A stretch of 10,549 bases of DNA from Pontiellaceae bacterium (GTDB lineage Bacteria; Verrucomicrobiota; Kiritimatiellia; Kiritimatiellales; Pontiellaceae), in NCBI GenBank assembly GCA_016937035.1, contig JAFGWS010000038.1:1-10549 (forward strand), written 5' to 3'. Numbering within the stretch: the stretch's first letter is position 1; every line of letters begins with the position of its first letter. Position numbers and translations under genes: made by a program. Below the pieces are notes generated by a model, which worked only from the letters and a program-made list of their open reading frames with translations, was not told the origin of the DNA and made no database searches. Below are positions 6,950-10,114 of the stretch, piece by piece.

Positions 6950-6984
6950 TTTAAAAGCGCAATCAAGCTTGCGCACTCCAAAGG
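6950..6984 (-). repeat. Family B repeat, copy 1 (short)
   Basis: Read on the minus strand this copy runs from TTTGGAGTGCGC to GCGCTTTTAAA, the two conserved ends of the family. The ends form a perfect 6-bp stem, GCGCAA (6957-6962) with TTGCGC (6969-6974). The interior is the shortest of all copies. Confidence 0.75.
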
Positions 6985-6998
6985 TTGCCTGTGCGATA

Positions 6999-7049
6999 TG
7001 GAGTGCGCGGGCCCGCAGGGTTGCGGAGCAACTTGACCGCGCTTTAAAA
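6999..7049 (+). repeat. Family B repeat, copy 2 (inverted to copies 1 and 3)
   Basis: This copy starts TGGAGTGCGCGG and ends CTTGACCGCGCTTTAAAA. The ends pair as GCGCGG (7005-7010) with CCGCGC (7037-7042); inside, GTTGC-GGA-GCAAC (7020-7032) forms a second hairpin. It lies 14 bases from copy 1 in opposite orientation. Confidence 0.75.
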
Positions 7050-7084
7050 TGCGCCGGAGGCGCTGTGCCAACTGAGCGTGTTTG

Positions 7085-7140
7085 TTTTAAAGCGGTGTCA
7101 AGCGGCTATCGCCGGCCTTCAGCCCACCGCACTCCAAAGG
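7085..7140 (-). repeat. Family B repeat, copy 3
   Basis: On the minus strand the copy starts CCTTTGGAGTGCGGTGG and ends CCGCTTGACACCGCTTTAAAA. The interior carries AAGGCCGGCGA, also present in the copy at 10062-10114. Ends can pair as GCGGT with ACCGC. Confidence 0.8.
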
Positions 7141-7150
7141 TTGTGTTGGC

Positions 7151-7196
7151 TTATTCTTCTACTGGCCATTCGGTGAGGATGTTGGCGGTTTCGAAC
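7151..7196 (-). pseudogene. Possible 3' remnant of a coding frame fused to a family A repeat
   Basis: On the minus strand, the family A copy at 7197-7252 reads GRDDCPQSS...SALP, and the frame runs on as FETANILTEWPVEE to a TAA (7153-7151). Upstream the frame is closed by TAG at 7279-7277 and no start is evident, so this is not an intact gene. The flank GATGTTGGCGG-TTCGA beside the repeat also borders the family A copy inside the U32 gene (7984-8000). It may be the tail of a decayed gene. Confidence 0.35.
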
Positions 7197-7252
7197 GGTA
7201 GGGCGGAGTCTCCCCACTCCGCTGCGGACGACTGGGGACAGTCGTCCCTACC
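7197..7252 (-). repeat. Family A palindromic element, intergenic copy (56 bp)
   Basis: Terminal inverted repeat GGTAGGG/CCCTACC encloses two hairpins: CGGAGT-CTCCCC-ACTCCG and GGACGACTG-GGGA-CAGTCGTCC. It has exactly the length of the copy at 8003-8058. Read on the minus strand, the frame that matches the U32 copies gives GRDDCPQSSAAEWGDSALP. Here the element is outside any gene. Confidence 0.9.
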
Positions 7253-7258
7253 TTGCCT

Positions 7259-7281
7259 GACGACTGGGGACCGTCCCTACC
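7259..7281 (-). repeat. Family A element, partial copy (right half)
   Basis: GACGACTGGGGAC followed by CGTCCCTACC equals the right half of the element with three bases (AGT) lost from the stem. It lies 6 bases after the full copy, in the same orientation, and is out of frame with it. Confidence 0.7.
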
Positions 7282-7491: not shown

Positions 7492-9930
7492 CTACAGCGT
7501 CCGGCGATAGTTCCCGTCATGACTTCCGGCGATGGATTCGCCGGCGAATGCGCTGCGGAGTATTCGGGCAGCGTCGGCCGCAGTGTGGACGCCGTAAGTG
7601 AGGTCCATTCGGAAATTATGTGCGCCGACGGCGCGGAGTTCGTCGAGGTGCTCGATCAGCGAAAACGGGGCTTCATCAATCAGGATATATGGGTCGCCGT
7701 TTTGCTCAATGCGCATGCTGCGCTTATCGCGATCGATGAGTGTCTCTCCGCAATCGGGTCGGGTGGCGGAAATCATCAGCGGCGTGTGTTGATAGACGGA
7801 AACGATGGCTCGGTCGCCGAGGAGTTTGATCAGCGCCTTCAGATTATCGCCGGTATCTTCCGGCGAAAGCACGTTTTGCCGAATCCCCAGCTCCTTCCAC
7901 TGCGCGGCGGCCTCGGTGTTGAAGGTGTAGAGCGGCCAGTCGGCCGTCAGATCGGTAGCGTGGCGGAAGGCATGGAGTGCGCCGATGTTGGCGGCTTCGA
8001 GGGGTAGGGCGGAGTGTCCCCACTCCGCCGTGGACGACTGGGGACAGTCGTCCCTACCTCGCTGAATGACTGGAATGGCCAGGCGCTTGCTGTAGACGAA
8101 AGCTTGCTTCTGTACGGCGCAATCACCTGCTTCGTTGTCGTCATTCGGCCGAGGGGGCATAACGAAGCTGGAAGCTTCGTCTACGTTATGGGTCTCCAGC
8201 ACAATTTCGTCAAGTTGTGCGAGTTCGTCGTCGGTCAGTTGATCGAGAAGCGAGAGGTCGCGCAGCTTGACGGACCAGCGTTCTTCATCTGTGGGTAGGG
8301 CGGAGTGTCCCCACTCCGCTGCGTGTCCTTCCGCTGCTTCCTCTTCGGACGGCTGGGGACAGCCGTCCCTAACAGAAAAAACCAATTCTTGCAGCCGCTC
8401 CGCGTGGGCGGCGGTTTTATGCTCAGCGAATGCTGCGCTCAGCTTTTCGAGCAGTTGTCGGCGGACTTCGTTGAGCAGCGATGCCGGTGCAAATAGGCCG
8501 TTGTCGTTGATTTCGAGGCGATCGAGTTGCCACTCGGTTCCGCCGGTTTTTTCGAAGCATTTTCGGATCGAGGCTCCGCTCTGGTCTGGATTCCGGGCTT
8601 CGCTCAGCGGTTCTTTAATTCGGATTTCAGTTTGGGCTGAACGGGCTGTTATGCCTGCGGCGGTCAGCTCAACCGTTGCGTTGAACGGCTTGCGCTGGCG
8701 ATAGACTCCGGGGCGCGGCGCTTCAAATTTATAGCGCCGGCGGATCTCCTGCGAGATGGAGCAGTAGATGGTGAGTCCGCTTTCGAGGTAAGGATGATCC
8801 GTCGGCAGCTTTACGGCGATGTCGGTATGCGCGGGAATTTCAAATTTAAGATGCTTTTTGCGGTCGCCCAGCAGTCGGATTTCGGTGGCGGAGAAGCCAT
8901 AAGGTTCTTTGCCGGACATCTCGATTTTGAGGCCGTCATATTTTTGCAGGGCGCGGTCGGTATGGAAATGGAGCCAATGACTGCCCTGTTCGGGGACAAT
9001 CGATTGAATCGTTCCAATAACGGCGCCGCGGTGTCCGTTGGTGGTTGGATCGATCGGGTTGGTGTCGGCGTTTTTAAGATAGAGGTCGGTGGCGGGGCGA
9101 CCGAAGATGGTCTGAATGTCGGAGAGCAGTTGCTGTTGTTGCTGAGTGTTGATTTCATGGCTCAGGCGCTTACGGTAAAAATCGGTAACGGCGCCGACAT
9201 ATTCGGGGCTCTTCATGCGGCCTTCGATCTTGAGCGATGTCACTCCGGCATCCAGCAGTTTGTCGAGGTGCGGACCGACGACAAAATCCTTCATGGAAAA
9301 TGGCGTTTTTCTTCCGTCGGAAGTGTTGAACGTCTGGCGGCAGCAATAGGCGCAGCGGCCGCGGTTACCGCTGCGGCCGAGCAGGTGCGAGGAGAAGAGG
9401 CAGAGTCCACTGTAGGAATAGCAGAGCGCGCCGTGGATGAAGACTTCGGTTTCGATGCCGCAGCCGCGCGTGATGGTTTCAATCTCTTTAAGGCTCAGCT
9501 CGCGCGCCAGTACCACGCGGGTGAAGTCGAGATCGGCCAGCAGCTTCGCGCCGTCGAGGTTGTGAACAGCCAGCTGGGTGCTGGCATGCAGAGGAAGTTT
9601 AGGGAAAAAGCGTTTGGCCATGCAGGCCACGCCCAGGTCCTGGACGATTACGCCGTCGGCGTTGAGATCGCGGATGCGCGCCAGCGCTTCAAGTGCGTCT
9701 GCGAGTTCATGCTGCTGCACGAGCGTGTTGAATGTGATGTAGACTTTGCGGTCGTGCGCGTGGGCATAGCCGATCAGCTCGTCGAGCTGTTCCTCGGAAA
9801 AATTAACGGCTTCGGCGCGGGCGGAAAAGCGGGGCAGTCCGGCGTAGACGGCGTCGGCGCCGTAGGCCAAGGCGGCCCATGCGGCATCGACGCTGCCCGC
9901 CGGGGCCAGGAGTTCTGGGTTTTTGTTCAT
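7492..9930 (-). CDS. U32-family peptidase / RlhA-like protein with three in-frame repeat insertions
   Basis: The 812-residue product starts PELLAPAGSVDAAWAALAYGADAVYAG, the start of the U32 barrel. EVFIHGALCYSYSGLCLFS (162-180) fits the U32 signature exactly, and C170, C177, C193 and C196/C197 form the cysteine cluster seen in the RlhA/TrhP/UbiU group. RlhA and TrhP act in RNA hydroxylation; others are called collagenases. A DUF3656-like middle (about 290-500) and a second half ending HNFRMDLTYGV support the RlhA-type long architecture. Oddities lie between: residues 521-547 and 625-644 come from family A repeats and 583-613 from family C, without breaking the frame. Removing them leaves about 735 residues, with conserved-looking RWSVKLRD and LDEIVLET between. 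Start ATG 9930 has only a weak, distant GGGAA. It stands alone between repeats. Molecular activity is inferred; I cannot tell peptidase from RNA-modifying role. Confidence 0.85.
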   Translation of the reverse strand: MNKNPELLAPAGSVDAAWAALAYGADAVYAGLPRFSARAEAVNFSEEQLDELIGYAHAHDRKVYITFNTLVQQHELADALEALARIRDLNADGVIVQDLGVACMAKRFFPKLPLHASTQLAVHNLDGAKLLADLDFTRVVLARELSLKEIETITRGCGIETEVFIHGALCYSYSGLCLFSSHLLGRSGNRGRCAYCCRQTFNTSDGRKTPFSMKDFVVGPHLDKLLDAGVTSLKIEGRMKSPEYVGAVTDFYRKRLSHEINTQQQQQLLSDIQTIFGRPATDLYLKNADTNPIDPTTNGHRGAVIGTIQSIVPEQGSHWLHFHTDRALQKYDGLKIEMSGKEPYGFSATEIRLLGDRKKHLKFEIPAHTDIAVKLPTDHPYLESGLTIYCSISQEIRRRYKFEAPRPGVYRQRKPFNATVELTAAGITARSAQTEIRIKEPLSEARNPDQSGASIRKCFEKTGGTEWQLDRLEINDNGLFAPASLLNEVRRQLLEKLSAAFAEHKTAAHAERLQELVFSVRDGCPQPSEEEAAEGHAAEWGHSALPTDEERWSVKLRDLSLLDQLTDDELAQLDEIVLETHNVDEASSFVMPPRPNDDNEAGDCAVQKQAFVYSKRLAIPVIQRGRDDCPQSSTAEWGHSALPLEAANIGALHAFRHATDLTADWPLYTFNTEAAAQWKELGIRQNVLSPEDTGDNLKALIKLLGDRAIVSVYQHTPLMISATRPDCGETLIDRDKRSMRIEQNGDPYILIDEAPFSLIEHLDELRAVGAHNFRMDLTYGVHTAADAARILRSAFAGESIAGSHDGNYRRTL
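8003..8058 (-). repeat. Family A palindromic element inside the U32 gene, copy A2 (56 bp)
   Basis: Best-formed copy. GGTAG/CTACC closes two perfect 9-bp hairpins: GGCGGAGTG-TCCC-CACTCCGCC (8008-8029) and GGACGACTG-GGGA-CAGTCGTCC (8032-8053). The loops TCCC and GGGA are complementary. Translated in the gene frame it gives GRDDCPQSSTAEWGHSALP (625-643). Confidence 0.92.
8092..8184 (-). repeat. Family C element inside the U32 gene (93 bp, 31 codons)
   Basis: On the plus strand GTAGACGAAAGCTT at 8092 is answered by AAGCTTCGTCTAC ending at 8184, an inverted repeat with one extra base. The distal end holds a perfect hairpin, ACGAAGCT-GGA-AGCTTCGT (8162-8180), nested in CATAACG/CGTTATG (8158-8164, 8184-8190). 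In the gene frame the unit encodes residues 583-613, from VDEASSFVM to QAFVY. Only one copy is present, so family status is inferred from structure. Confidence 0.65.
8294..8373 (-). repeat. Family A palindromic element inside the U32 gene, copy A1 (80 bp, long linker)
   Basis: Left hairpin CGGAGTG-TCCC-CACTCCG (8301-8318) equals copy A2; right hairpin is GGACGGCTG-GGGA-CAGCCGTCC (8347-8368), with an A-T pair changed to G-C on both sides. The linker between hairpins is 24 bases longer than in the 56-bp copies, a multiple of three. The outer end has drifted from CTACC to CTAAC. In frame it encodes RDGCPQPS...AEWGHSALP. Confidence 0.88.
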
Positions 9931-10061
9931 GGGTTGAATTTCCCGGATAATTGGGTGCGTGACGACTGGAAATTCAGGGAATTTTCCGGGTTAAATTTTT
10001 GACCACCCGCCTTGCTGGAGGCACTGAGTCACAGAGGTTCCTTTTCTCCGGTGGATTTGTT

Positions 10062-10114
10062 TGATAGCGGTGTCGAGCGGCAGTCGCCGGCCTTCGGCCT
10101 TCCGCACTCCAAAT
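10062..10114 (-). repeat. Family B repeat, copy 4
   Basis: Read on the minus strand it starts TTTGGAGTGCGGAAGG, holds GAAGGCCGGCGA in its interior and ends GCCGCTCGACACCGCTATCAA. It is closest to copy 3 (7085-7140), about 3 kb away, which shows the family is dispersed and not a single local duplication. Confidence 0.8.

Follow-up and report, generated by a model that had tools for sequence, protein, structure and literature searches.

Known in-frame insertions

REPs are named for their extragenic location. Rickettsia palindromic elements are in-frame palindromic inserts in many proteins, and inteins bring a mobile enzyme gene in frame into single-copy housekeeping genes. The papers that follow are cited from excerpts. 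RepRanger defines REPs as seldom overlapping coding regions (PMC12306157). In REPINs (PMC3116915), which have been described outside genes, an inverted REP doublet gives one long hairpin structure. In REPtrons, a Y1 HUH transposase (RAYT/TnpA-REP) is encoded between inverted REPs (PMC2817692, PMC8266576, PMC6006769); a few unexpectedly long RAYT proteins were set aside in PMC6006769 as gene fusions or annotation errors. Intragenic GTAG REPs in frame have already been published (PMC3733652): these dimers have a GTAG head, stems of 6–9 bp and inverted order, lie in frame within ORFs, contribute 20–30 amino acids per dimer and were inserted repeatedly in one gene. O. terrae (Verrucomicrobia) is named there as the richest. 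The same source places the rickettsial RPE-4 and RPE-6 in a CGTC class, for which it found no association with transposase genes.

Palindromic doublets in a U32 gene

The window, i.e. the whole 10,549-nucleotide stretch of DNA analysed, contained, read from its left end, an arabinofuranosidase-like gene, FeoB, a FeoC-like gene and a U32 gene on the minus strand. It is Pontiella-like (Kiritimatiellota), with family members of its proteins carrying the names Pontiella and Pontiellaceae. The nearest genome compared was G001 (U32 locus L003, protein P0002), which had 23% of the window's sampled 31-letter words in common. The following features were recognized:

7492..9930, minus strand: U32 family gene, PF01136 and PF12392 (DUF3656), 812 aa (ORF and Pfam); carries all three elements
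8294..8373, minus strand: family A doublet (putative REP), in frame, about residues 520–546 (hairpin scan, fold); among the eight other U32 proteins of alignment A1 shared only by P0002
8092..8184, minus strand: family C doublet (putative REP), in frame, residues 583–613 (hairpin scan, fold); common to P0002 and P0003 and partly to P0005 and P0006
8162..8184, minus strand: C hairpin with GTAG, 8-bp stem and TCC loop; identical to one adjoining the RAYT within PriA of G001 (L105)
8003..8058, minus strand: family A doublet (putative REP), in frame, about residues 625–643 (hairpin scan, fold); A also present here in P0004
8004..8029, plus strand: A hairpin arm 1, GTAG head and 9-bp stem (hairpin scan)
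8032..8057, minus strand: A hairpin arm 2, GTAG head and 9-bp stem (hairpin scan)
7178..7267, minus strand: probable decayed duplicate of the U32 sequence surrounding the 8003 element, with a third A copy (7197–7252); 88% to 7984–8073, and by translation

The original prediction, made from the letters of the window, was of three palindromic elements in frame in the U32 gene, and their coordinates, frame and similarity were all borne out: the 812-aa ORF ran uninterrupted across both A elements and the C element. Family A was 56 bp long at 8003 and 7197 and 80 bp at 8294, with the sequence GTAG-GGCGGAGTG-TCCC-CACTCCGCC followed by the inverted GTAG-GGACGACTG-TCCC-CAGTCGTCC. One end of the C element read GTAG-ACGAAGCT-TCC-AGCTTCGT, and its partner at the other end was degenerate. 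The GTAG head was present at the foot of the stem-loop in the A arms and in one C arm, the second C arm of the window (GTAGACGAAAGCTTGCTTC) being degenerate. An inverted hairpin pair was found for A, and for C it was clear in L003 and L105 and degenerate in the window. The window contained eight GTAG-headed hairpins, compared with a mean of 0.61 and a maximum of 3 in 100 Markov shuffles; six of the eight were A and C arms, one of these with the changed loop of the 7197 copy. Folded as single-stranded DNA, the elements reached z-scores of −6.5 (8003), −5.2 (8294), −4.2 (C) and −4.3 (7197), with none of 200 shuffles as good in each case. The A element at 8003 folded into two hairpins sharing a GGTAG/CTACC foot. 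Family A thus folds as REPINs do; REPINs have been described outside genes, whereas the U32 elements are coding sequence. That both A copies are read in the same phase was also predicted correctly, but the 8003 element was stop-free in four of six frames, so the common phase is weak evidence, and it was dropped as a sign of selection.

The U32 inserts share all the listed traits of the GTAG dimers in the excerpts of PMC3733652 and differ from them in stems and loops, in the phylum-level lineage and in the gene concerned. Since in-frame intragenic GTAG REPs are published there, the U32 inserts add a new case to a known kind.

Alignment A1 comprised nine U32 proteins, those of the window and eight others. 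Depending on the protein, the stretch between conserved blocks was empty, filled with A, filled with C or filled otherwise. P0002 had A (residues 520–546) and C, plus FQVSGLKFQVS at the place of the window's second A; P0003 had C and FQVSGFKFQVS, without A; P0004 had A at the window's second-A place (residues 625–643) only, the sole one of the eight to do so. A C-like doublet was seen in P0005 and a shorter C-like stretch in P0006, and neither A nor C was present in P0007, P0008 and P0009. Because some of these relatives share A or C and others are without either, the inserts are patchy and not confined to the window. The expectation that their residues would be unique to the window therefore held only in part: several relatives were without them, and P0002–P0006 shared some. 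In a wider set, U32 proteins of other families and genera, where the same residues would have spoken against insertion, aligned without the A and C residues. No target duplication and no clean DNA-level empty site were found for the U32 inserts, and the flanking residues differed at the sites. Heptad-like repeats of the FQVSGLKFQVS type occupied the site of window position 8003 in L003 and P0003. Inserts also occurred outside the linker, in P0002 near residue 204, in P0009 near residue 288 and, of a D-like kind, in P0002–P0004 near residue 435; the one in P0009 was in frame (LNHEEHKDHEAH...) and apparently a different dispersed repeat.

The predicted U32 structure was poor overall (mean pLDDT 54, pTM 0.33), with pLDDT <50 at residues 506–547, 581–613 and 617–693. 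The inserts probably sit in a permissive linker between conserved U32 blocks, and the added peptide is probably unstructured. A linker position had been predicted; the segment does vary among relatives, and the linker reading rests on the alignment, the model being poor.

The U32 ORFs of relatives were scanned for GTAG hairpins in 32 rows, representing 31 distinct loci (L006 equals L003). Twenty hairpins were found in the 31 distinct loci, compared with 0.74 (maximum 4) in 50 codon shuffles of the 32 rows. Eight rows had such hairpins: the window, L003/L006, L011, L013, L022, L017 and L030. L011 contained two doublets of the D type, and L013, from another bacterial family, also contained two doublets. 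The single hairpins of L017 and L030 fell in conserved U32 blocks, and these two of the 20 look like chance. Because different GTAG hairpins occur in the U32 ORFs of relatives, the gene appears to have been struck by several REP families.

The third A copy, at 7197, had been taken for an extragenic copy of the same element. Its flanks matched U32 DNA (88% over 90 nt), and its minus-strand translation, VVRQ-GRDDCPQSSAAEWGDSALP-FETANI-LTEWP followed by a stop, has as its U32 counterpart VIQR-GRDDCPQSSTAEWGHSALP-LEAANI..LTADWP. With U32 flanks present in both DNA and translation, an independent extragenic insertion was rejected, and the copy is probably a decayed duplicate of the U32 stretch. L003 likewise had a C copy with U32-like flanks directly behind its U32 gene. 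A second palindromic family (TTTAAAGCGGTGTC...GCACTCCAAA), which had no GTAG head, was observed at window positions 6978–7138 and 10056–10113; its copies at 7081 and 10056 were 86% alike over 58 nt, and an inverted copy lay at about 6996–7049.

Dispersed copies, transposases and the origin of the inserts

The elements are dispersed, as counted in the genomes of relatives, where further copies had been predicted. The exact family A pattern (GTAGGGNNNNNTGTCCCCA) occurred 37 times across 9 of the 28 Pontiella genomes, against none for the reversed control. With one mismatch allowed it occurred in 16 of the 28, but the control matched as well; a longer-stem variant had five matches, all in G002. 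The C-type pattern gave 135 matches in 18 of the 28 genomes and one control match. Exact A and C hairpins were absent from viral contigs in two scans.

In G001, 21 C-type matches corresponded to 16 elements, nine of which were read in frame as part of genes, two each in a DUF4139 protein and PriA and one each in an HrpA-like helicase, a protein kinase, U32, Mfd and a PNP-UbiA domain join. Seven of the nine had Pfam domains on both sides or across, U32 was assigned by alignment, and Mfd had Pfam support on one side only. In six other genomes (G002 being covered at five places), 2 of 24 C-type elements were in genes (XseA in L204, TatD in L116). The in-gene habit is therefore strong in G001 and not general. 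Exact family A matches in G001 were limited to the two U32 arms, plus a half match adjoining a tRNA-like end, and a protein search with the A peptide matched only the window and P0002 (candidates of about 447–1421 aa). In G017, a 344-aa ORF (L265) contained an A doublet in frame close to its end; this ORF had no Pfam domain and a short NCBIfam match under the cut-off, and it was not counted as an in-gene case. Among the 25 of 37 exact A matches whose context was examined, with Pfam run on four other ORFs, none besides the G001 U32 and the uncounted G017 case lay in a supported gene.

RAYT genes lay beside hairpins of both types. For A, a 167-aa RAYT of P. desulfatans (G006, L248; NCBIfam REP_Tyr_transpos 94.4 bits, cut-off 80) stood between three A doublets and an A hairpin, and is thus a unit of the REPtron kind. 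For C, the RAYT in PriA of G001 had C-type hairpins on both sides, one of them letter-identical to the window's C hairpin. A truncated Y1_Tnp in G002 had A-like hairpins on both sides.

We consider it likely, with a probability of about 0.87, that the three U32 elements are non-autonomous, GTAG-headed REP doublets of the BIME/REPIN type that were moved by a RAYT and survived where they were in frame and tolerated. Behind this stand the established anatomy, reading frame and patchy presence, the additional copies across the genus, and the A- and C-type hairpins flanking RAYT genes. A RAYT of the Pontiella lineage (TnpA-REP, HUH single-strand transposases) would have copied or moved the doublets as single-stranded hairpins into U32, and those insertions that kept the frame in the permissive stretch between conserved blocks would have survived. 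The inserted DNA would thereby be translated as extra, probably unstructured peptide, which we infer to be tolerated rather than useful. In related elements even the RAYT gene is in frame inside host genes.

An adaptive origin, in which selection retains the added peptides because they tune the U32 enzyme (e.g. its binding of rRNA or of a partner), would agree with the retention in frame of A at 520–546 and C at 583–613 in both the window and P0002. It is very unlikely given the patchy presence and the unrelated inserts at the same stretches (FQVSGLKFQVS-type repeats in P0002/P0003, D-type REPs in L011, other GTAG hairpins in L013); the low pLDDT over the inserts also speaks against it, though the U32 model is poor overall. 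Spread of the U32 copies by local duplication or gene conversion instead of RAYT activity is similarly improbable: it leaves unexplained why many genomes have A and C hairpins at unrelated loci and why the same stretch of U32 carries different REP families, while the U32 flanks of the 7178–7267 copy and the U32-like flanks of the C copy behind U32 in L003 speak for it, and it probably explains the 7197 copy. The likeness to Rickettsia palindromic elements, drawn in the original prediction, holds for the outcome, in-frame palindromes that add peptides, and not for the class, which by anatomy is that of GTAG REP doublets with RAYT. The GTAG head, the doublet order and the RAYT association make it extremely improbable that these belong to the Rickettsia type or to some other family of coding palindromes with no relation to RAYT; RPE-4 and RPE-6 of rickettsiae have a different head, that of the CGTC class, which PMC3733652 found not to be transposase-associated. 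That candidate was rejected on anatomy and the RAYT link.

Housekeeping genes that carry a whole RAYT gene in frame

A Y1_Tnp profile search of ten good Pontiella genomes gave 96 matches, and the 17 whose open frame measured 450 aa or more were all examined: 11 were internal, five C-terminal and one N-terminal (L184). The internal ones were in PriA (G001, G017, G022, G026), a B12-radical-SAM/DUF4080 protein (G001, G005, G010, G017, G022), CmoB (G001) and MvaD (G026), and the C-terminal ones in ThiD (G022, G026), TatD (G002) and CobQ (G006, G010). Further hosts were HypF (G032), the CCA-adding enzyme (G036), MvaD (G018) and PriA (G007, G014, G018, G027, G038, G042), and in the B12-radical-SAM gene of G008 and G021 the RAYT was at another place. 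Y1_Tnp at the C-terminus of biosynthetic or nuclease proteins of several Pontiella genomes was observed at L135, L181, L133 and L134 (ThiD), L183 (TatD), and L185 and L186 (CobQ). Among 27 Y1_Tnp matches starting at profile position 27 or later, 25 were examined; 14 were RAYTs of the LPHW type (12 in host frames and two, L207 and L220, standing alone) and the other 11 belonged to another class; the matches outside these 25 may include more of the LPHW type.

The RAYT was bracketed by GTAG hairpins in the PriA ORFs of six genomes, in that of G038, in CmoB and in the MvaD of G018; in the MvaD of G026 and the PriA of G026 and of G027, hairpins stood on one side of the RAYT or inside it. At the radical-SAM genes, HypF, CCA and the G042 PriA, the GTAG-hairpin scan found no flanking hairpins; short in-frame repeats of other kinds adjoined the RAYT there (e.g. 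RQDVGETVPPASCGQHS in L112). A D-type REP was noted within the RAYT coding part of PriA in G026, G027 and G038 (L175, L125, L130). The PriA-embedded domain passed the Y1_Tnp Pfam cut-off, and all 24 embedded or fused RAYT sequences contained PNHxH. The REP_Tyr_transpos cut-off of 80 bits was exceeded in L112, L181 and L185, as in the A-type L248, and was not reached by three PriA ORFs (58.8, 59.0 and 64.0 bits), CmoB, MvaD, HypF and CCA; the PriA-embedded domain is therefore termed RAYT-like. Pfam detected no splicing (Hint) domain in the RAYT-bearing ORFs scanned. Unlike an intein, the RAYT would remain in the protein, and in contrast to REPtrons its reading frame is continuous with that of the host protein in PriA and the other genes.

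PriA was the clearest case. The G001 ORF had PriA_3primeBD at 29–125, Y1_Tnp at 313–390 and helicase domains from 531. PriA_3primeBD had a single match per genome, in 20 of 28 Pontiella genomes, so the RAYT-filled priA is the only copy seen. Between the 3'BD and the next domain, six genomes had a doublet-RAYT-doublet unit (687–711 nt in the five measured), the two doublets being 80–97% alike within a genome. The priA of P. desulfatans (G006) had one REP doublet without RAYT, which resembles a scar. Linker remnants were of the D type in G002 and G019 and of a third kind in G005, and no REP or RAYT was found in the PriA linker of G010, G012, G025 and G028. In P. sulfatireligans (G022), a named species, PriA is annotated at 1000 aa (P0014), which argues against an assembly error there.

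The Ka/Ks of the RAYT in PriA was 0.033–0.112 (12 of 15 pairs, three being undefined by saturation) and that of the PriA helicase part 0.065–0.116; these ratios are rough because Ks was high and near-saturated, and they point to purifying selection on the PriA RAYT. In a tree of 24 RAYT sequences, the PriA RAYTs fell in two groups and CmoB (G001) stood beside MvaD (G026) with 99/97 support, two long branches being unsure. Because of this split and this pairing, RAYTs appear to have entered PriA at least twice and to have changed hosts. The P. sulfatireligans PriA-RAYT model (19 sequences) had a pLDDT of 65 and a pTM of 0.48, with about 55–81 per block in the RAYT part and <50 in both REP-encoded joins. 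Foldseek ranked PriA structures first for this model, and the RAYT part, searched by sequence against the PDB, gave one unconvincing match only.

We tentatively propose, at somewhat less than even odds, that a group of Pontiella RAYTs lives as translated inserts: stop-free REP-RAYT-REP units in linkers of single-copy housekeeping genes would be expressed with the host protein, would be difficult to lose other than through exact REP-REP recombination with an in-frame doublet left behind, and would seed doublets of the U32 type. If true, such inserts would have an intein-like life without splicing, or would represent early domestication, with PriA carrying its own single-strand nuclease. The U32 doublets taken by themselves are of a known kind; judged from the sequences, the whole RAYT units in frame appear to be the new aspect. 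No RAYT gene lying whole and in frame within a housekeeping gene, as found in Pontiella and its order, is described in the excerpts of PMC3733652 or in the literature searched, which included few subscription journals. Despite their extragenic name, REPs are read through again and again within conserved genes, as is their transposase in relatives, and the U32 stretch and the PriA linker were each struck by several REP families. Filled, scarred and empty sites exist naturally; therefore the cost, benefit and mechanism of in-frame insertion are testable.

A search with the RAYT part of G001 PriA gave 494 proteins of 584–1858 aa (E up to 1e-6). Among the 120 matches listed (P0010–P0129), 21 had a PriA domain, and others had restriction, methylase, RarA or Mur-ligase domains. 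The Pontiella genomes suggest that the 'unexpectedly long' RAYT proteins set aside in the earlier survey (PMC6006769, in excerpt) merit a second look. Some of the RAYT-like long proteins among P0010–P0129 bear names from other phyla.
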